Origin: Gemmatimonadales bacterium
Lineage (GTDB): Bacteria > Gemmatimonadota > Gemmatimonadetes > Gemmatimonadales > GWC2-71-9
DNA length: 64,000 nt
NCBI GenBank assembly: GCA_036279355.1
Contig: DASUJH010000051.1
Span: 1 to 64,000 of the forward strand
Direction of reading: 5' to 3'
Made by a program: the position numbers and the translations under genes. The notes under the pieces were generated by a model. It was not told where the DNA came from. It did not search any database and saw only the letters and a program-made list of their open reading frames with translations. Below are positions 20,170 through 40,883 of the stretch, in pieces. Every line of letters starts with the position of its first letter. Within the stretch, counting starts at the first letter, position 1.

Positions 20170-21218
20170 TCGGGGGCGGACAGGCGGACAGGCGGACAGG
20201 CGGACGCTACGCGGCGGCGGGGGTCGACTTGGCTGCGGCGGAAAGCGCCAAGGAGACGATCGCGCGGCTCGTCGCGGGGACGCGCACAGCGCTCAGCGTG
20301 GGCGAGGTCGGGGCGTTCGGCGGGATGGTGCGGGTGCCCGCCGGCATGCGGAAGCCCACGCTCGTGCTCAGCACCGACGGGGTCGGCACCAAGGTGCTGG
20401 TGGCGCTCGCGGCCCGGCGGCTCGGTGGCGTGGGCGAGGATCTCGTCAACCACAGCGTCAACGACATCCTGGTGCACGGTGCCGCACCCATCGCGTTCAT
20501 GGACTACATCGCGGGCGCGGGGCTCACGGTGGAGCAGACGGCCGAGATCGTCGAGGGCATCGCGCGCGGCTGCCGGGTGCACGGCATGGCGCTGGCCGGC
20601 GGCGAGACGGCGCAGATGCCGGGACTTTACGCGCCGGGCACGTTCGACCTGGCCGGGACCATCGTGGGCGTGGTGGAGGAGGACGCGGCGTTGCACGGCG
20701 ATCGGATCGTGCCGGGCGATGTGCTGCTGGGCTACGCCTCGACCGGGCTCCATACCAACGGCTACTCGCTCGCGCGCCGAGTGATCTTCGAGCAGGCGGG
20801 GCTCGCGCTCGACGACGTGCTGGGCGAGACCGGCATGACGGCGGCCGACGCGCTGCTCGCGGTCCACCGCAGCTACGACCGCAGTGTGAGACCGGTGCTC
20901 GACCGCGTGCACGGACTGGCGCATATCACGGGCGGCGGCATCGCGGGCAATCTGGTGCGGGTCCTGCCCGCCGCATGCGCGGCGACGGTGGACCCCGAGA
21001 GCTGGGAGTGGCCGCCGCTCTTTCGATACTTGAGCGAGGCGGGCGGGATCAGCACCGAGGAGATGCGCGACGTCTTCAACCTCGGTGTCGGGCTCATTGC
21101 CGTGCTGCCCGCGGACGCGGTGAGCGCCGCGCAGGCGGCGGCGCGCGCCGATGGGGTCGACACCTGGCCGTTGGGCGAGATCAGCCGTGGCCCACGCGCC
21201 GTGCGATTCGCCCGCTGA
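20166..21218 (+). CDS. purM: Phosphoribosylformylglycinamidine cyclo-ligase (AIR synthetase)
   Basis: 350 residues. It catalyses ATP-dependent closure of FGAM to AIR in purine synthesis. YAAAGVDLAAAESAKETI, STDGVGTKVLVAL, NHSVNDILVHGAAPIAFMDY, GETAQMPGLY and HITGGGIAGNLVRVLP are PurM signatures. The only start before the conserved YAAAGVD is GTG at 20166, overlapping the kinase stop. Codons 4-14 are then read through an 8-bp tandem repeat (giving QADRRTGGR), so the N-terminus is extended by repeat-coded residues and a change in copy number would shift the frame. Confidence 0.93.
   Translation: MIGGGQADRRTGGRYAAAGVDLAAAESAKETIARLVAGTRTALSVGEVGAFGGMVRVPAGMRKPTLVLSTDGVGTKVLVALAARRLGGVGEDLVNHSVNDILVHGAAPIAFMDYIAGAGLTVEQTAEIVEGIARGCRVHGMALAGGETAQMPGLYAPGTFDLAGTIVGVVEEDAALHGDRIVPGDVLLGYASTGLHTNGYSLARRVIFEQAGLALDDVLGETGMTAADALLAVHRSYDRSVRPVLDRVHGLAHITGGGIAGNLVRVLPAACAATVDPESWEWPPLFRYLSEAGGISTEEMRDVFNLGVGLIAVLPADAVSAAQAAARADGVDTWPLGEISRGPRAVRFAR
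20175..20206 (+). repeat. Tandem 8-bp repeat GGCGGACA, four units
   Basis: GGCGGACA occurs perfectly at 20175, 20183 and 20191, and as GGCGGACG at 20199. The array lies 5 bases after the PfkB stop and inside the 5' end of purM. A related 8-bp array follows the glutamine synthetase gene (61074-61105). Confidence 0.9.
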
Positions 21219-34148: not shown

Positions 34149-34640
34149 ATGATTGAAGTTACCGTAGCGCACCTGGGACTCGACCGGACCACCAACACGC
34201 CGGTCGTGATCCTGCGCGAAAAGGACGGCTCGCGCGTACTGCCGATCTGGATCGGCCCCGCCGAGGCCAGCGCGATCGCGATGGAGCTGCAGGGAATGAA
34301 GGCGCAGCGCCCGCTCACCCACGATCTGCTCAAGCAGGTGATCGTGAGCCTGGGCGGCGATCTCCGCCGCGTCATCATCAGTGCGGTCAAGGAAAACACC
34401 TACTTCGCCGAGCTGCTCATCCGGCGCGACGACCATGTGTACCAGGTCGACGCGCGGCCGTCGGATAGCATTGCGCTCGCGCTGAGACTCCGTGCTCCGA
34501 TCTTTACCAGCGATCAATTGCTGGATCAGAGTGGCGTCGAGACCGATGAGCCTGCCCCCGACCCGTCGCTCGAGGCGGATAAGCTGAAACACTACCTGGA
34601 GAAGATGGATCCGCAGGATTTCGGAAGATTTCAGCCCTAA
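34149..34640 (+). CDS. Bifunctional nuclease family (DUF151) protein
   Basis: 163 residues. The core fits the BFN/DUF151 family: VVILREKDGSRVLPIWIGPAEASAIA with the IWIG-x-x-EA motif, RPLTHDLL, and VDARPSDSIALALRLRAPIF. The first described member (Arabidopsis) acts on RNA and DNA, but the biochemical role in bacteria is little known. The C-terminus is acidic. A large 9-bp repeat array starts about 25 bases after its stop and lies within the next gene. Confidence 0.88.
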   Translation: MIEVTVAHLGLDRTTNTPVVILREKDGSRVLPIWIGPAEASAIAMELQGMKAQRPLTHDLLKQVIVSLGGDLRRVIISAVKENTYFAELLIRRDDHVYQVDARPSDSIALALRLRAPIFTSDQLLDQSGVETDEPAPDPSLEADKLKHYLEKMDPQDFGRFQP

Positions 34641-34641
34641 A

Positions 34642-35868
34642 GTGGGCGGCAAGGGAGCAAGGGACGCGGTAGTGGCGGTAACGGCGGTAAAGGCGGTAGG
34701 GGACTGCGCCGGCCGTGTCCTATTCCGCCTGACGGCCCGTTCCCCAAGCCCTACCATCTTTTCCGTCACTACCGCGCTTACCGCCTTCCTTACCATCCCC
34801 ACCGCCCGTGTCGCCGCTCAAACCTTAGCCGCAGGCCAGATCGTGACCGTGCAGCGCGGCGACACGGTGCCGGTGCCCGGCGCACGCGTTGTCCTGCACC
34901 GTGTCGGCCGCGCCGCCGAGGGACCGGTCGACTCCACCAGCTCCGACCCGGCTGGCCGCTTTCGCTTCCGATTCACCGCCGATACCACGTCTATCTACCT
35001 TATCAGTTCCCGCTACGCGGGCATCGAGTACTTCTCTCCCCCGGTCCACCTGAACCCCGCCCGCCCCGACACCGCGCTCAGGGTGGTCGTCTCCGACACG
35101 TCGAGCACCCAGCGCGTGGCGCTCGAGGCGCGCCACCTCGTTGTGGCCCGGCCCCGGTCCGACGGCAGCCGCGCGGTGCTCGATCTCATCGTGCTCAACA
35201 ACCGCGGCGACCGCACCCGCATCGCGGGCGATTCGCTCACGCCCACGTGGAGCGCGGCACTCCCCCGCGGCTCGCTCGGGCTCGAGGCGGGCGAGGGCGA
35301 CTATTCTCCCGACGCCGTGCGCCGCACCGGCGACCGGCTGCTCTTCTACGCCCCGATCCCGCCCGGCGAGAAGCAGATCGTGGTGGATTACGTGCTGCCC
35401 GCGGGACTCCGAAAGCTCGTGCTCCCGATGCGCCAGCCGGCGGAGCTGGTGAACGTGCTGCTCGAGGAACGGAAGGCGCAGGTGACGACGCCGAGTCTCG
35501 CGGTGGCGGACAGCGAGCTGATTCAATCGCGCACGTACTATCGGTGGACCGGCTCGCTCACGGCGGGCGATACGCTCCGGGTGGGGCTCCCCGGGAGCGG
35601 TGCCGTGCCCTCGTGGCTCTTGCCCGCGTTGGTGGCAGCCGTCGGACTTGCATTCGTGGTGGCCGCGGTGCGCCTGCTGCCGCGCCCGGGCGCGGCGGGC
35701 GCGCGCCAGCCCGACGTGCTGCTCGCATCACTCGCGCGGCTCGATGCCGCCTACGGCGGCCGCGAAGCCGAGGTGGCCCCCGTCGAGTGGGCGCGCTACA
35801 CGGCGGAGCGAGCGCGGCTCAAGGCGGCGCTCGAGGCTGCTCTTGCAACCATCCCGCAGGGCTCCTAG
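34642..35868 (+). CDS. Exported, C-terminally anchored protein; signal peptide coded by repeat DNA
   Basis: 408 residues from the GTG at 34642, although GTG at 34672 is also possible. A hydrophobic stretch TIFSVTTALTAFLTIPTARV-AAQ looks like a signal peptide and is coded by an inverted 9-bp repeat array. After it, a ~90-residue beta-sandwich (GQIVTVQRGDTVPVPGARVV, FRFTADTTSIYLISSRYAG) resembles carboxypeptidase-regulatory/peptidase-associated domains. A second beta domain follows. Near residue 335 a single membrane helix (SWLLPALVAAVGLAFVVAAV) precedes a cytoplasmic tail of ~50 residues. No enzyme motif is present. A role as an envelope accessory protein before the B12 uptake genes is possible but unproven. 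Confidence 0.7.
   Translation: MGGKGARDAVVAVTAVKAVGDCAGRVLFRLTARSPSPTIFSVTTALTAFLTIPTARVAAQTLAAGQIVTVQRGDTVPVPGARVVLHRVGRAAEGPVDSTSSDPAGRFRFRFTADTTSIYLISSRYAGIEYFSPPVHLNPARPDTALRVVVSDTSSTQRVALEARHLVVARPRSDGSRAVLDLIVLNNRGDRTRIAGDSLTPTWSAALPRGSLGLEAGEGDYSPDAVRRTGDRLLFYAPIPPGEKQIVVDYVLPAGLRKLVLPMRQPAELVNVLLEERKAQVTTPSLAVADSELIQSRTYYRWTGSLTAGDTLRVGLPGSGAVPSWLLPALVAAVGLAFVVAAVRLLPRPGAAGARQPDVLLASLARLDAAYGGREAEVAPVEWARYTAERARLKAALEAALATIPQGS
34665..34785 (+). repeat. 9-bp GGCGGTAAN tandem array and its inverted partner
   Basis: Forward array at 34665-34700: CGCGGTAGT, GGCGGTAAC, GGCGGTAAA, GGCGGTAGG. Inverted array at 34750-34785: CCCTACCAT, CTTTTCCGT, CACTACCGC, GCTTACCGC. Read on the minus strand the second array gives GCGGTAAGC, GCGGTAGTG, ACGGAAAAG, ATGGTAGGG. 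The arrays can pair as an imperfect hairpin with a ~50-base loop. Both lie inside the 5' end of the exported-protein gene. Confidence 0.85.
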
Positions 35869-37833: not shown

Positions 37834-38642
37834 TCCTCGAAGGCCGCGAGCTTACCGTGCGGTACGACGGCGCCTCGGTGCCGGCGCTCGACGGCGTATC
37901 GCTCCGCGTCACCCCTCGCGAGCTGCTCGCCGTCTGCGGCCCTAACGGCAGCGGCAAGACCACCCTGGTACGGGCACTCCTCGGCCTCGTGCCCCTCAAC
38001 GGTGGCGCCGCGCTGCTCGACGAGCGGCCGGTCGCCGAATGGCGCGGCGGCTCGCTTGCCAAGGTCGTGGGCGTCGTGGCGCAGCGCGAAGACATCGTTT
38101 TTCCTCTCACCGTCGCCCAGATGGTCCTGCTCGGTCGGTATCCGCACCTGGGGCCGCTCGCACCGGAAGGACCGCAGGACCGCGAGGCCGTGCTCAAGGC
38201 GCTCCGGCGTTGCGACGTCGAGCGGCTGGCCAAGCGGCGGGTCGACACCCTTTCCGGCGGCGAGTGGCAGCTGGTGCGGCTGGCGCGCGCGCTGGCGCAG
38301 CAGCCGCGCATCCTCGTGCTCGACGAGCCGACCGCCTCGCTCGACGTGCGCCACGAGATGGAGCTGTTCGAGCTGGTGCGCGGGCTGGTGCGCGACGGGC
38401 TCGCGGGTCTCGTCATTACCCACGAGCTCAACCTCGCCGCTCGCTTCGCGGATCGCATCGTGCTGCTTGACGAAGGGCGGGTGGCGGCCGAGGGGAGCCC
38501 CGCCGAGGTGTTTCGCAGCGACACGCTCGAGCGGATATTTCAGTGGCCGGTGTCGGTCGCCACCCTCCCCGACGGCTCGCCCCAGGTCGTACCGGAACGA
38601 AAGGTGGCAAGGACGGTAGAGGCGGTAAGCGAAGGGCGGTAA
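37830..38642 (+). CDS. btuD: ABC transporter ATP-binding protein, BtuD/FecE family
   Basis: 270 residues. Walker A is CGPNGSGKTT, the signature is TLSGGEWQLVRLARAL, Walker B is ILVLDEPTASLD, and the switch His lies in LVITHELNL. The signature has SGGEW where SGGER or SGGEQ is usual. GTG start. The last codons and the TAA are read from GGCGGTAA repeat units (ending AVSEGR). A 13-bp inverted repeat then spans to the stop of the converging receptor gene. Confidence 0.88.
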   Translation: MILEGRELTVRYDGASVPALDGVSLRVTPRELLAVCGPNGSGKTTLVRALLGLVPLNGGAALLDERPVAEWRGGSLAKVVGVVAQREDIVFPLTVAQMVLLGRYPHLGPLAPEGPQDREAVLKALRRCDVERLAKRRVDTLSGGEWQLVRLARALAQQPRILVLDEPTASLDVRHEMELFELVRGLVRDGLAGLVITHELNLAARFADRIVLLDEGRVAAEGSPAEVFRSDTLERIFQWPVSVATLPDGSPQVVPERKVARTVEAVSEGR

Positions 38643-38670
38643 GGGCGGCACCGTCGGTACCGCCCTTCGC
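38629..38670. terminator. Bidirectional hairpin between converging btuD and btuB
   Basis: GCGAAGGGCGGTA (38629-38641) and its exact complement TACCGCCCTTCGC (38658-38670) flank a 16-base loop. The stem covers the btuD stop and ends one base before the receptor stop, so it could end transcripts from both sides. There is no T-run on either strand, so ordinary intrinsic termination is uncertain. The stem contains a GGCGGTAA unit. Confidence 0.5.
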
Positions 38671-40698
38671 TCATCGATAGCTCGATGCGAGCCCCACCAG
38701 CAGTGTCCGCCCTCGCGCCGGGAATCCCGCTACCTGCTCGTAGTCCTTGTCGAATACGTTTTCCACCCTGAGCGTCACCCCAAGTCCGGGTGCGCGCCCC
38801 GCGCCGAGCAGGCGCACGTGGCCGCTCAGGTCGAGCGTCGCGTAGGCGGGAAGCTCGATGCGCGTGGTGGGTGTCGGGAATTGTGCGAACCGCAGATCGT
38901 CGCGCGCGCCGACCACCTCGAGCTCGGCGCCAAGCTGCGCCCGGGCCCGCGGGTCGGAATACGCCCGCAGCGTGAGCGCGTGGCCGGGCCGCCTGAGCAG
39001 CCGTTCGCCGGTGACAAAATTCGCGTCCGGCCCCGTGTCGAATCCGGCGTCAGTGACCCGCGTGTGCAGCCACGTATAGCCCGCCGTGAGACCCACCGGC
39101 CCGAGCCGCTTCAGGTCCACCGACGCTTCGATGCCTGATGCGTTTGCCGCCGCGATGTTGAAGTAGTTCGGTGCGCCCGGTGCTGGCGGCGCCCCCGTGA
39201 ACTGGATGAGATCGCGGAAGCGCTGCGCGAATCCGGTGATCGACAGCGTCACGTGACCGTGCAGCGCGTCCTGCTCGATCCCGCCCTCGAAGCTCTGGGT
39301 GCGTTCCGGCGCCAGGTTCGGGTTGCCCGTGGCGAACGGCCCCGTCGCGAAATTCTCGAAGAAGCTCGGCTCCTTGAACGCATTGCCCGCCGAGGCGCGG
39401 AGCCGCGTCGCGGGGGTCAGGAGCACGAGCGCGCTCGTGCGCCAGGTCCAGAAGTCGCCGAATCGGCTGTTCCGGTCGAGCCGTCCGCCGGCCGAGAGGC
39501 GCACGCGGCGCCCCGGCTCCGCCGACGCCTGCGCGTAAAAGCCCCAATCGTGCCGCGCGGCCGCGAACGTATCGGCCGTCGCGCCGAACCCGAAATCGGA
39601 CTCGTCGGTGCTGTGCTCGTGCTGGTGGTCGAGCGCGACGCCGGCCATGAGCGTCGTGCGCGGCAGGCCGGTGTAGAGCGCGCGCGCTTCGGCCGTCTCG
39701 CGGCGCACGCGCGCCCGGCTCGTCTCGACGTCCGCCGGCCCCGGCGGCGGGTCGGGCGTGTTGTCGAACCCGCTTCGCTCTGCATTCCGGCCGACGAGGA
39801 GCTGACCCTCGAGTCCCCGCGCAAGCCGCCGGGACACTTCGAGCGACACTGTCGTCGTGCGATCGGTGTTGAATTGGTTCCGATCGGTGAGTGCCCCGGT
39901 GAAATCGGTGGGGAAGGCGAACCGCCCGTCGGTGAACCGGAACGTGAGCGCCGCGTCGGTTTCCGCGTCCGGCCGGGCGCGAAGCCGCACGCTCGCCGCC
40001 GTGTTTCGGTACGCGTTGTTGAACGCGTATGCACCGTCGGTGGTGAGCCGTGAGAGCGAGCCCGACCAACCGAGCGCGGCGCCACCGGCGTCCGCGCTGC
40101 CACCGGTCCCCCCGTGCGCCGCGGCGCTCCACCGCACGGTGCCGAATGTGCCCGCCTCTGCGTCCGCGTCCACCCTGGTCGGGCCGGCGCCGTCGCGCGT
40201 GATGATCTGGACCACGCCGCTCACCGCGTCCGAGCCGTAGAGCACGCTCGCCGGACCGCGGAGCACCTCGATTCGCTCCACGTTGTCGGTCGTGAGCGAG
40301 GCGAAATCGTAGGCGCCCCCGGGCTGGTTCACGGGCACGCCGTCCACCAGCACCTTGGTGTAGTCGCTCTCGCCACCGCGGGTGAAGAGCGACGTCGCGG
40401 CTCCGAACGAGCCGCCCTGCACGAGATGCAGGCCGGGCACCTCGCGGAGGGCGTCGGCCACGAACGAAATGCCCTGCGCCCGGAGGTCGTCGCCCTTGAG
40501 CACGGTGAGCGTCGCCGAAAGCGACTCGGGTGGCACGGGATAGCGCGTGGCCGTGACCACGATCTCCGGCAGCGCGGCGGTGTCGCCGGGCACCTGGGCG
40601 CGGAGAATCGAAACTGGAACGATCAGACCCGAAACGAGCGATGCTGCTGAAGCGAGAACGAAATTGCGGACTGCGCGGCGGATGGATGGAGTCGCCAC
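38671..40698 (-). CDS. btuB: TonB-dependent outer-membrane receptor, BtuB-like
   Basis: 675 residues from a GTG at 40698 with a GGGGGAGGG ribosome-binding site. The signal peptide runs to ~30 (VSGLIVPVSILRAQ). The TonB box/plug follows: LPEIVVTATRYPVPPESLSA, then SLFTRGGESDYTKVLVDGVPVNQPGG and VERIEVLRGPASVLYGSDAVSGVVQI. A 22-strand barrel occupies the remainder, with FKEPSFFENFA, NLAPERTQSFEGGIEQD and the C-terminal VENVFDKDYEQVAGFPARGRT. The cobalamin riboswitch upstream and btuFCD facing it make vitamin B12 or a related corrinoid the substrate. It ends in SSYR rather than an aromatic residue. Confidence 0.92.
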   Translation of the reverse strand: MATPSIRRAVRNFVLASAASLVSGLIVPVSILRAQVPGDTAALPEIVVTATRYPVPPESLSATLTVLKGDDLRAQGISFVADALREVPGLHLVQGGSFGAATSLFTRGGESDYTKVLVDGVPVNQPGGAYDFASLTTDNVERIEVLRGPASVLYGSDAVSGVVQIITRDGAGPTRVDADAEAGTFGTVRWSAAAHGGTGGSADAGGAALGWSGSLSRLTTDGAYAFNNAYRNTAASVRLRARPDAETDAALTFRFTDGRFAFPTDFTGALTDRNQFNTDRTTTVSLEVSRRLARGLEGQLLVGRNAERSGFDNTPDPPPGPADVETSRARVRRETAEARALYTGLPRTTLMAGVALDHQHEHSTDESDFGFGATADTFAAARHDWGFYAQASAEPGRRVRLSAGGRLDRNSRFGDFWTWRTSALVLLTPATRLRASAGNAFKEPSFFENFATGPFATGNPNLAPERTQSFEGGIEQDALHGHVTLSITGFAQRFRDLIQFTGAPPAPGAPNYFNIAAANASGIEASVDLKRLGPVGLTAGYTWLHTRVTDAGFDTGPDANFVTGERLLRRPGHALTLRAYSDPRARAQLGAELEVVGARDDLRFAQFPTPTTRIELPAYATLDLSGHVRLLGAGRAPGLGVTLRVENVFDKDYEQVAGFPARGRTLLVGLASSYR

Positions 40699-40730: not shown

Positions 40731-40883
40731 CTCGCAGAGGTCTCCTGGCTTCGGGCCCCCGCTCGCCTTCCCAGCAGGCCGAGCCTGCCAGTGGCATGGT
40801 GAGCGAGGTGTCAGCGACTGTGCTGCGCCCGTTACAGTGGCGGGGCCGCGCCGGAGTTGCACCGGCTTCCGAGCGTCTGCGCT
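40731..40883 (-). ncRNA. Cobalamin riboswitch
   Basis: On the minus strand the conserved elements appear in order: GCCGGTGCAACTCCGGCGCG, GGCCCCGCCACTGTAACGGG, the inner GCCACTGG, GGGAAGGCGAGC, and the B12-box sequence GAAGCCAGGAGACC. GCGCAGA near 40877 and TCTGCG near 40735 can pair as P1. About 30 bases later CCCTC-GGGG-GAGGG can form a hairpin hiding the ribosome-binding site of the receptor, which suggests translational control. Binding of adenosylcobalamin should lower expression of the receptor. Confidence 0.93.

Follow-up and report, generated by a model that had tools for sequence, protein, structure and literature searches.

A palindromic repeat element as the probable source of a signal peptide in a Gemmatimonadales bacterium

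Introduction

Previously, the same kind of event as the one analyzed here was described for the palindromic element RU-2 (YPAL) in YPO1552 of Yersinia pestis (Delihas 2007, PMC2759123; reviewed in PMC2229807). RU-2 is a 168-bp MITE with one main case, which has neither a short-unit array nor an array logic, whereas the case described below extends to several lineages and, within one genome, to four genes, and displays a common hydrophobic frame. Rickettsia palindromic elements (RPE) are likewise palindromic repeats that lie in frame inside protein genes and are kept as peptide segments. However, they are about 105–150 bp long, possess defined terminal repeats and have been reported inside conserved proteins, not as export signals. 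A further resemblance is found to REP sequences of the GTAG/CGTC families, which are dispersed palindromes, mostly intergenic and in some cases located within genes. REP sequences measure 20–40 bp, carry an unpaired GTAG/CGTC tag and are often accompanied by a RAYT, whereas the stem of the present element is a tandem 9-bp array of up to about 165 nt. No GTAG/CGTC tag was seen on reading the copies, which separates them from REP. The only Y1-transposase (Y1_Tnp) gene has no units within its 1.5 kb flanks, so that the RAYT association of REP is likewise missing and RAYT-driven mobility is not supported.

Beyond Delihas 2007, the open-licence literature yielded no direct precedent for palindromic repeats or repeat-coded signal peptides in Gemmatimonadota. 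What is new in comparison with the precedents is that the event recurs over several genes as well as lineages, that the repeat has an array structure, and that a simple reason can be given at the codon level.

Gene organization at the bfn junction

The analyzed window, a stretch of 64,000 nucleotides, belongs to a genome of 3.25 Mb in 60 contigs (97.5% complete). It contains on the plus strand a gene of the bifunctional nuclease family (bfn, 34149–34640; Pfam BFN_dom, E = 3.2e-41), which ends with the stop codon TAA at 34638–34640 and adjoins the gene under study on its upstream side in the orthologues examined. The following open reading frame (34642–35868, plus strand), running from GTG 34642 to the stop at 35868, codes for a 408-residue protein of exported type. 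It is composed of an N-terminus coded by the repeat element, a weak CarboxypepD_reg-like domain (residues 69–140; Pfam E = 2.5e-4, under the gathering cut-off) and a C-terminal hydrophobic segment, WLLPALVAAVGLAFVVAAVRLL (35610–35682, plus strand), read off the translation as a putative membrane anchor. The protein is termed exported because its orthologues carry a clear signal peptide and because it has this C-terminal hydrophobic segment itself. Relatives are present in 230 of 250 genomes of the order, and the named neighbors are Gemmatimonadales metagenome assemblies.

The start codon is uncertain, candidates being GTG 34642, GTG 34672 and a non-canonical codon within the end of bfn. In 59 of 67 orthologues the gene after bfn lies in the +1 frame, which is open through the end of bfn (34588–34642 and equivalents). 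Start codons were counted at this junction and its equivalents in L006–L077 and L093–L141: 29 of the 67 orthologues lack ATG, GTG and TTG from 75 nt before the bfn stop to the hydrophobic region (h-region), and all 29 have ATT, ATC or CTG codons there. Judged from these sequences, non-canonical initiation or a +1 frameshift at the junction is possible.

Structure of the repeat element

Positions 34643–34807 (plus strand) are occupied by a single member of a dispersed family of palindromic elements, as supported by folding and by a covariance model. The forward arm (34665–34699, plus strand) consists of GGCGGTARN units and reads DAVVAVTAVKAV; the units GGCGGTAA, GGCGGTAA and GGCGGTAG start at 34674, 34683 and 34692, preceded by a degenerate unit at 34665. 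It is followed by the core GGGACTGCGCCGGCCGTGTCC (34700–34720, plus strand; read as GDCAGRV), which resembles the core of other copies (GGACTCGGCCGGCCGAGTCC type), and by the inverted arm of degenerate NYTACCGCC units (about 34721–34807, plus strand), whose outer part reads IFSVTTALTAFLTIPTA and contributes the h-region. The inverted array is more degenerate than the forward one. Positions 34665–34689 and 34752–34776 are 80% complementary over 25 nt, and folding of the strand gives a single long hairpin with a raw energy of −87 kcal/mol. Within the window GGCGGTAR occurs 15 times against 3.1 expected, a number reached by none of 100 shuffles.

The covariance model R1, built from nine other copies with the bfn-junction copy left out, matches 34672–34778 with rough E-values of 3.3e-5 (minus strand) and 5.5e-4 (plus strand). 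The locus thus has the common core between complementary 9-bp arrays that marks the GGCGGTARN element, and it is matched by a model from which it was absent. TRF did not report the arrays at 34643–34807 because they are short and imperfect, and Rfam gave no match at this locus. Given the core between the arrays and the R1 match, the arrays are the two arms of one decayed copy of a genome-wide palindromic element.

Throughout the genome, the family consists of dispersed palindromes in which GGCGGTARN units are followed by a core near GGACTCGGCCGGCCGAGTCC and then by NYTACCGCC units. Nine clear copies can be aligned. Within copies the arms covary, with 13 both-side changes against 5.6 in shuffled sets (0/500), which also exceeds slid registers; one arm is therefore a copy of the other, as opposed to two arrays of independent origin. 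Gene calling around the copies places them mostly between genes, as for the copy at C24:39015, which reads KGGRGGKDGKGGKNCAGRVLTAFTILTASTAHA. Like the MITE/RPE class, the family is palindromic, dispersed, and found both between genes and in frame inside genes. Array ends vary among copies, and a sister species in which the site between bfn and the downstream gene is empty was not found. A histidine kinase gene, an AAA ATPase gene and a DNA polymerase III-like gene match by pattern only; they were excluded as copies because they are absent from the model list.

Putative signal peptide encoded by the element

The initial annotation had proposed that the hydrophobic core of the exported protein is the reading of the inverted array and that the residues before it are the reading of the forward array. 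In the frame of the gene, residues 43–55 (TTALTAFLTIPTA, 34768–34806) are indeed the inverted array read as CTT-ACC-GCC (Leu-Thr-Ala), and residues 10–19 (VVAVTAVKAV, 34669–34698) are the forward array. However, the latter do not directly precede the hydrophobic core, as about 23 residues from the element core and the inner arm lie in between.

The hydrophobic core of the putative signal peptide spans residues 39–52 (IFSVTTALTAFLTI, 34756–34797, plus strand). Its most hydrophobic uncharged 12-mer, IFSVTTALTAFL, has a mean Kyte-Doolittle value of 1.88, which is at the low end; the best 12-mer is less hydrophobic in 8 of 66 other orthologues. Cleavage is predicted at A59|Q60 (ARVAA|QT, 34816–34821, plus strand), matching the Ala-Gln motif found there in most orthologues. 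By a simple rule the traits of a Sec signal peptide are present, namely Arg25, Arg29 and Arg33, the hydrophobic stretch and VAA|Q, suggesting that the element-coded N-terminus would direct Sec export and be cleaved at this site. The stretch ahead of the h-region is unusually long, with 38 residues from GTG 34642, two of them Asp.

The frame is uninterrupted over the whole 165 nt of the element, up to the conserved Ala-Gln motif. Translation from a start behind the arrays, which would contradict an element-coded signal peptide, was checked as well: between the element and GTG 34843 there is no ATG, GTG or TTG, and this next start corresponds to residue 68, inside the mature part. Starting there would therefore cost the conserved Ala-Gln cleavage motif.

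Comparison with orthologues

The comparison comprised 67 distinct bfn junctions, this one and 66 other orthologues, mostly from draft or metagenome assemblies. Draft assembly could distort palindromes; independent genomes agree, however. Such arrays are lacking in 63 of the 66 other orthologues, where hydrophobic signal peptides of unrelated sequence stand at the equivalent place. The initial annotation had counted orthologues of this kind against its reading, but they are what is expected if the export signal was replaced here. Hence the replacement proposed in the initial annotation is supported. Since both arrays belong to a single copy of an element that occurs genome-wide, insertion or seeding with later degeneration explains more than the local repeat expansion to which the replacement had been ascribed.

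In the 62 measurable array-less loci (L073 could not be measured), the signal peptide ends 40–95 nt past the bfn stop, with a median of about 52. The four longest distances are those of the four loci with palindromic arrays, which had been called by reading before the distances were ranked: L132 (106 nt), L056/G057 (112 nt), L058/G172 (122 nt) and the present locus (178 nt). The array of L132 consists of GGCGGCAAG-like units and reads GTGGKDGKGGN...SLAAFAVLTAF, that of L056 has GGAAAGG-like units and weaker arms (MAGKVGR...FFLILPILPFLP), and that of L058 is built from the 8-bp unit GGCGGTAC. A maximum-likelihood tree of 72 orthologues requires four separate array gains, a number forced by the supported branches alone.

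Further genes with element-coded signal peptides

Three more genes for exported proteins in the same genome begin with a copy of the element. In the gene for MltG/YceG (C2:97297; Pfam E = 1.1e-83) the element, matched by R1 with E = 3.1e-4, reads VGGKKGGGRVRTASTALTASFAALTVLTSC. In the gene for a DUF4139 protein (C59:24577; weak Pfam match) only the inverted arm is recognizable, and the reading ends in SILSAFTALTACLVTPLTAQ. In the gene for a substrate-binding (SBP) lipoprotein (C24:173715–174773; SBP_bac_6, E = 1.6e-16) it reads MKGGNGGRGRKGGRVWWTLVAALAASLGC. The frame common to the cases in this genome is CTT-ACC-GCC (Leu-Thr-Ala), in the SBP gene Leu-Ala-Ala, and in two of the three genes the lipobox cysteine directly ends the element-coded stretch. 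In relatives of the three proteins, about 19 for each, the signal peptides are unrelated and free of this element, though one SBP relative (L225) reads the array-like ALAALTALRALAALTALTA. Accordingly, the repeat-coded signal peptide at the bfn junction is not unique, being joined by three genes of the same genome and by the same junction in three lineages.

The coding capacity of the family was assessed with a rule of our own with a single threshold, by which a frame is signal-peptide-like if an uncharged 12-mer of mean hydropathy ≥ 1.5 follows a net positive stretch. Seven such frames occur in twelve copies against 0.8 expected from dinucleotide shuffles, and none of 300 shuffled sets reaches seven. 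Three of the seven belong to signal-peptide copies (bfn junction, MltG and SBP), and the remaining four to intergenic copies.

Long palindromic arrays with different units (GCGGATTG, GCGGAATG, GCAGAGTT) are also found in N-terminal windows of mltG (G009, G014 and G018) and of the SBP gene (G014, G032 and G036). For four gene families, a palindrome score of at least 16 was obtained for 8 of 126 N-terminal windows and for none of 378 gene-body windows; since N-terminal windows take in intergenic DNA, where palindromes are commoner, these counts indicate co-location and not selection. The decayed bfn-junction copy scores 11 and so does not contribute to the eight. Several of the arrays with different units code mainly for the n-region. 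At mltG and SBP gene starts of other genera, arrays of GCGGATTG, GCGGAATG, GCAGAGTT and GGTGAACG were observed in L170, L172, L174, L224, L230, L235 and L237.

Origin of the signal peptide

Copies of the element are mostly intergenic and fold strongly, and the Pfam match of the protein starts only at residue 69. The element might thus be an intergenic hairpin, acting as terminator, mRNA stabilizer or spacer, with translation starting downstream, for instance at GTG 34843, and the signal peptide lost. This is improbable, because the frame is open across 165 nt up to the conserved Ala-Gln, where orthologues have a signal peptide, a start at 34843 forfeits the aligned residues 56–67, and the same layout in two other genes leads straight to the lipobox cysteine. 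Even less credible, to the point of being negligible, is convergence, by which selection for h-regions rich in Leu, Ala and Thr in a GC-rich genome would have produced array-like DNA by chance: Ala/Leu-rich h-regions are common among the orthologues, but complementary arms, a common core, the model match and intergenic copies of the same sequence argue against it.

Growth of the arrays in place, by slippage or template switching from a small ancestral palindrome in the signal peptide and with no mobile element inserted, is unlikely too, yet the most serious of these alternatives. The signal peptide of the closest orthologue (L007/L102) has, by eye, a small palindrome, GCGAAGGC/GCCTTCGC, and the units vary by lineage (8-bp GGCGGTAC, GGAAAGG-type, GGCGGCAAG). 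However, the family core CTGCGCCGGCCG-GTCC is common to this copy and to unlinked loci, which is unexpected from local growth.

Most probably, then, a copy of the element occupies the junction between bfn and the downstream gene and has replaced the ancestral signal peptide, with the palindrome, in register, coding for the new one. The dispersed element would have been inserted or seeded there and would have degenerated afterwards. Its 5′ arm and core would be read as the long N-terminal stretch with Lys and Arg, and its 3′ arm, in the CTT-ACC-GCC frame, as a hydrophobic core of Leu, Thr, Ala, Phe and Ile that ends just ahead of the Ala-Gln cleavage motif. As AAG (Lys) is the reverse complement of CTT (Leu), an arm of GGC-GGT-AAG and its inverse read Gly-Gly-Lys...Leu-Thr-Ala. 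In general, the Lys, Arg and Gly codons of a purine-rich arm become Leu, Phe, Ala, Thr and Pro codons in its reverse complement, so that a palindrome in register would have the order of n-region and h-region, and being a palindrome, the element could provide it in either orientation. Since nearly every sequence of such composition is tolerated as a signal peptide, insertions may survive and recur.

More tentatively, palindromic short-unit arrays might provide Gemmatimonadota with a lasting supply of new signal peptides, drawn upon repeatedly and from unrelated units, although we would stop short of calling this probable. If true, an in-register insertion at a gene start could serve immediately as an export signal. 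A non-coding repeat seems to have been reused as a protein targeting signal, which offers a concrete route from selfish or structural repeat DNA to a part of a protein. Its stages are visible as intergenic copies with ready frames, near-perfect arms (SBP, MltG) and a decayed copy (bfn junction). How signal peptides arise and are replaced thereby becomes open to testing. For annotation, this implies that repeat-coded N-termini in such genomes can be real.

Other repeats in the window and the genome

A weak second copy lies in the window at 38619–38684 (R1 E = 0.14/0.23). Its forward arm codes for the C-terminus and stop (EGR*, CGG-TAA; within 38600–38664) of an ABC ATPase gene ending at 38642, and array-supplied stops likewise occur upstream of the MltG and SBP genes. 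An element-like palindrome is situated in DNA polymerase I (PolA), between the 5′-3′ and 3′-5′ exonuclease domains (L216, C56:65610), and a weak one inside an RpoN-like protein (L218, C7:64844). In ribosomal protein L5 (L033, C45:44354), the Gly-Lys-rich N-terminal extension GGKGGKDGKGGKGAGQKGG reads a GGCGGTAAG array. The window further contains an exact short tandem array at 20175–20205 (GGCGGACA × 3.9) and a cobalamin riboswitch on the minus strand at 40740–40870.
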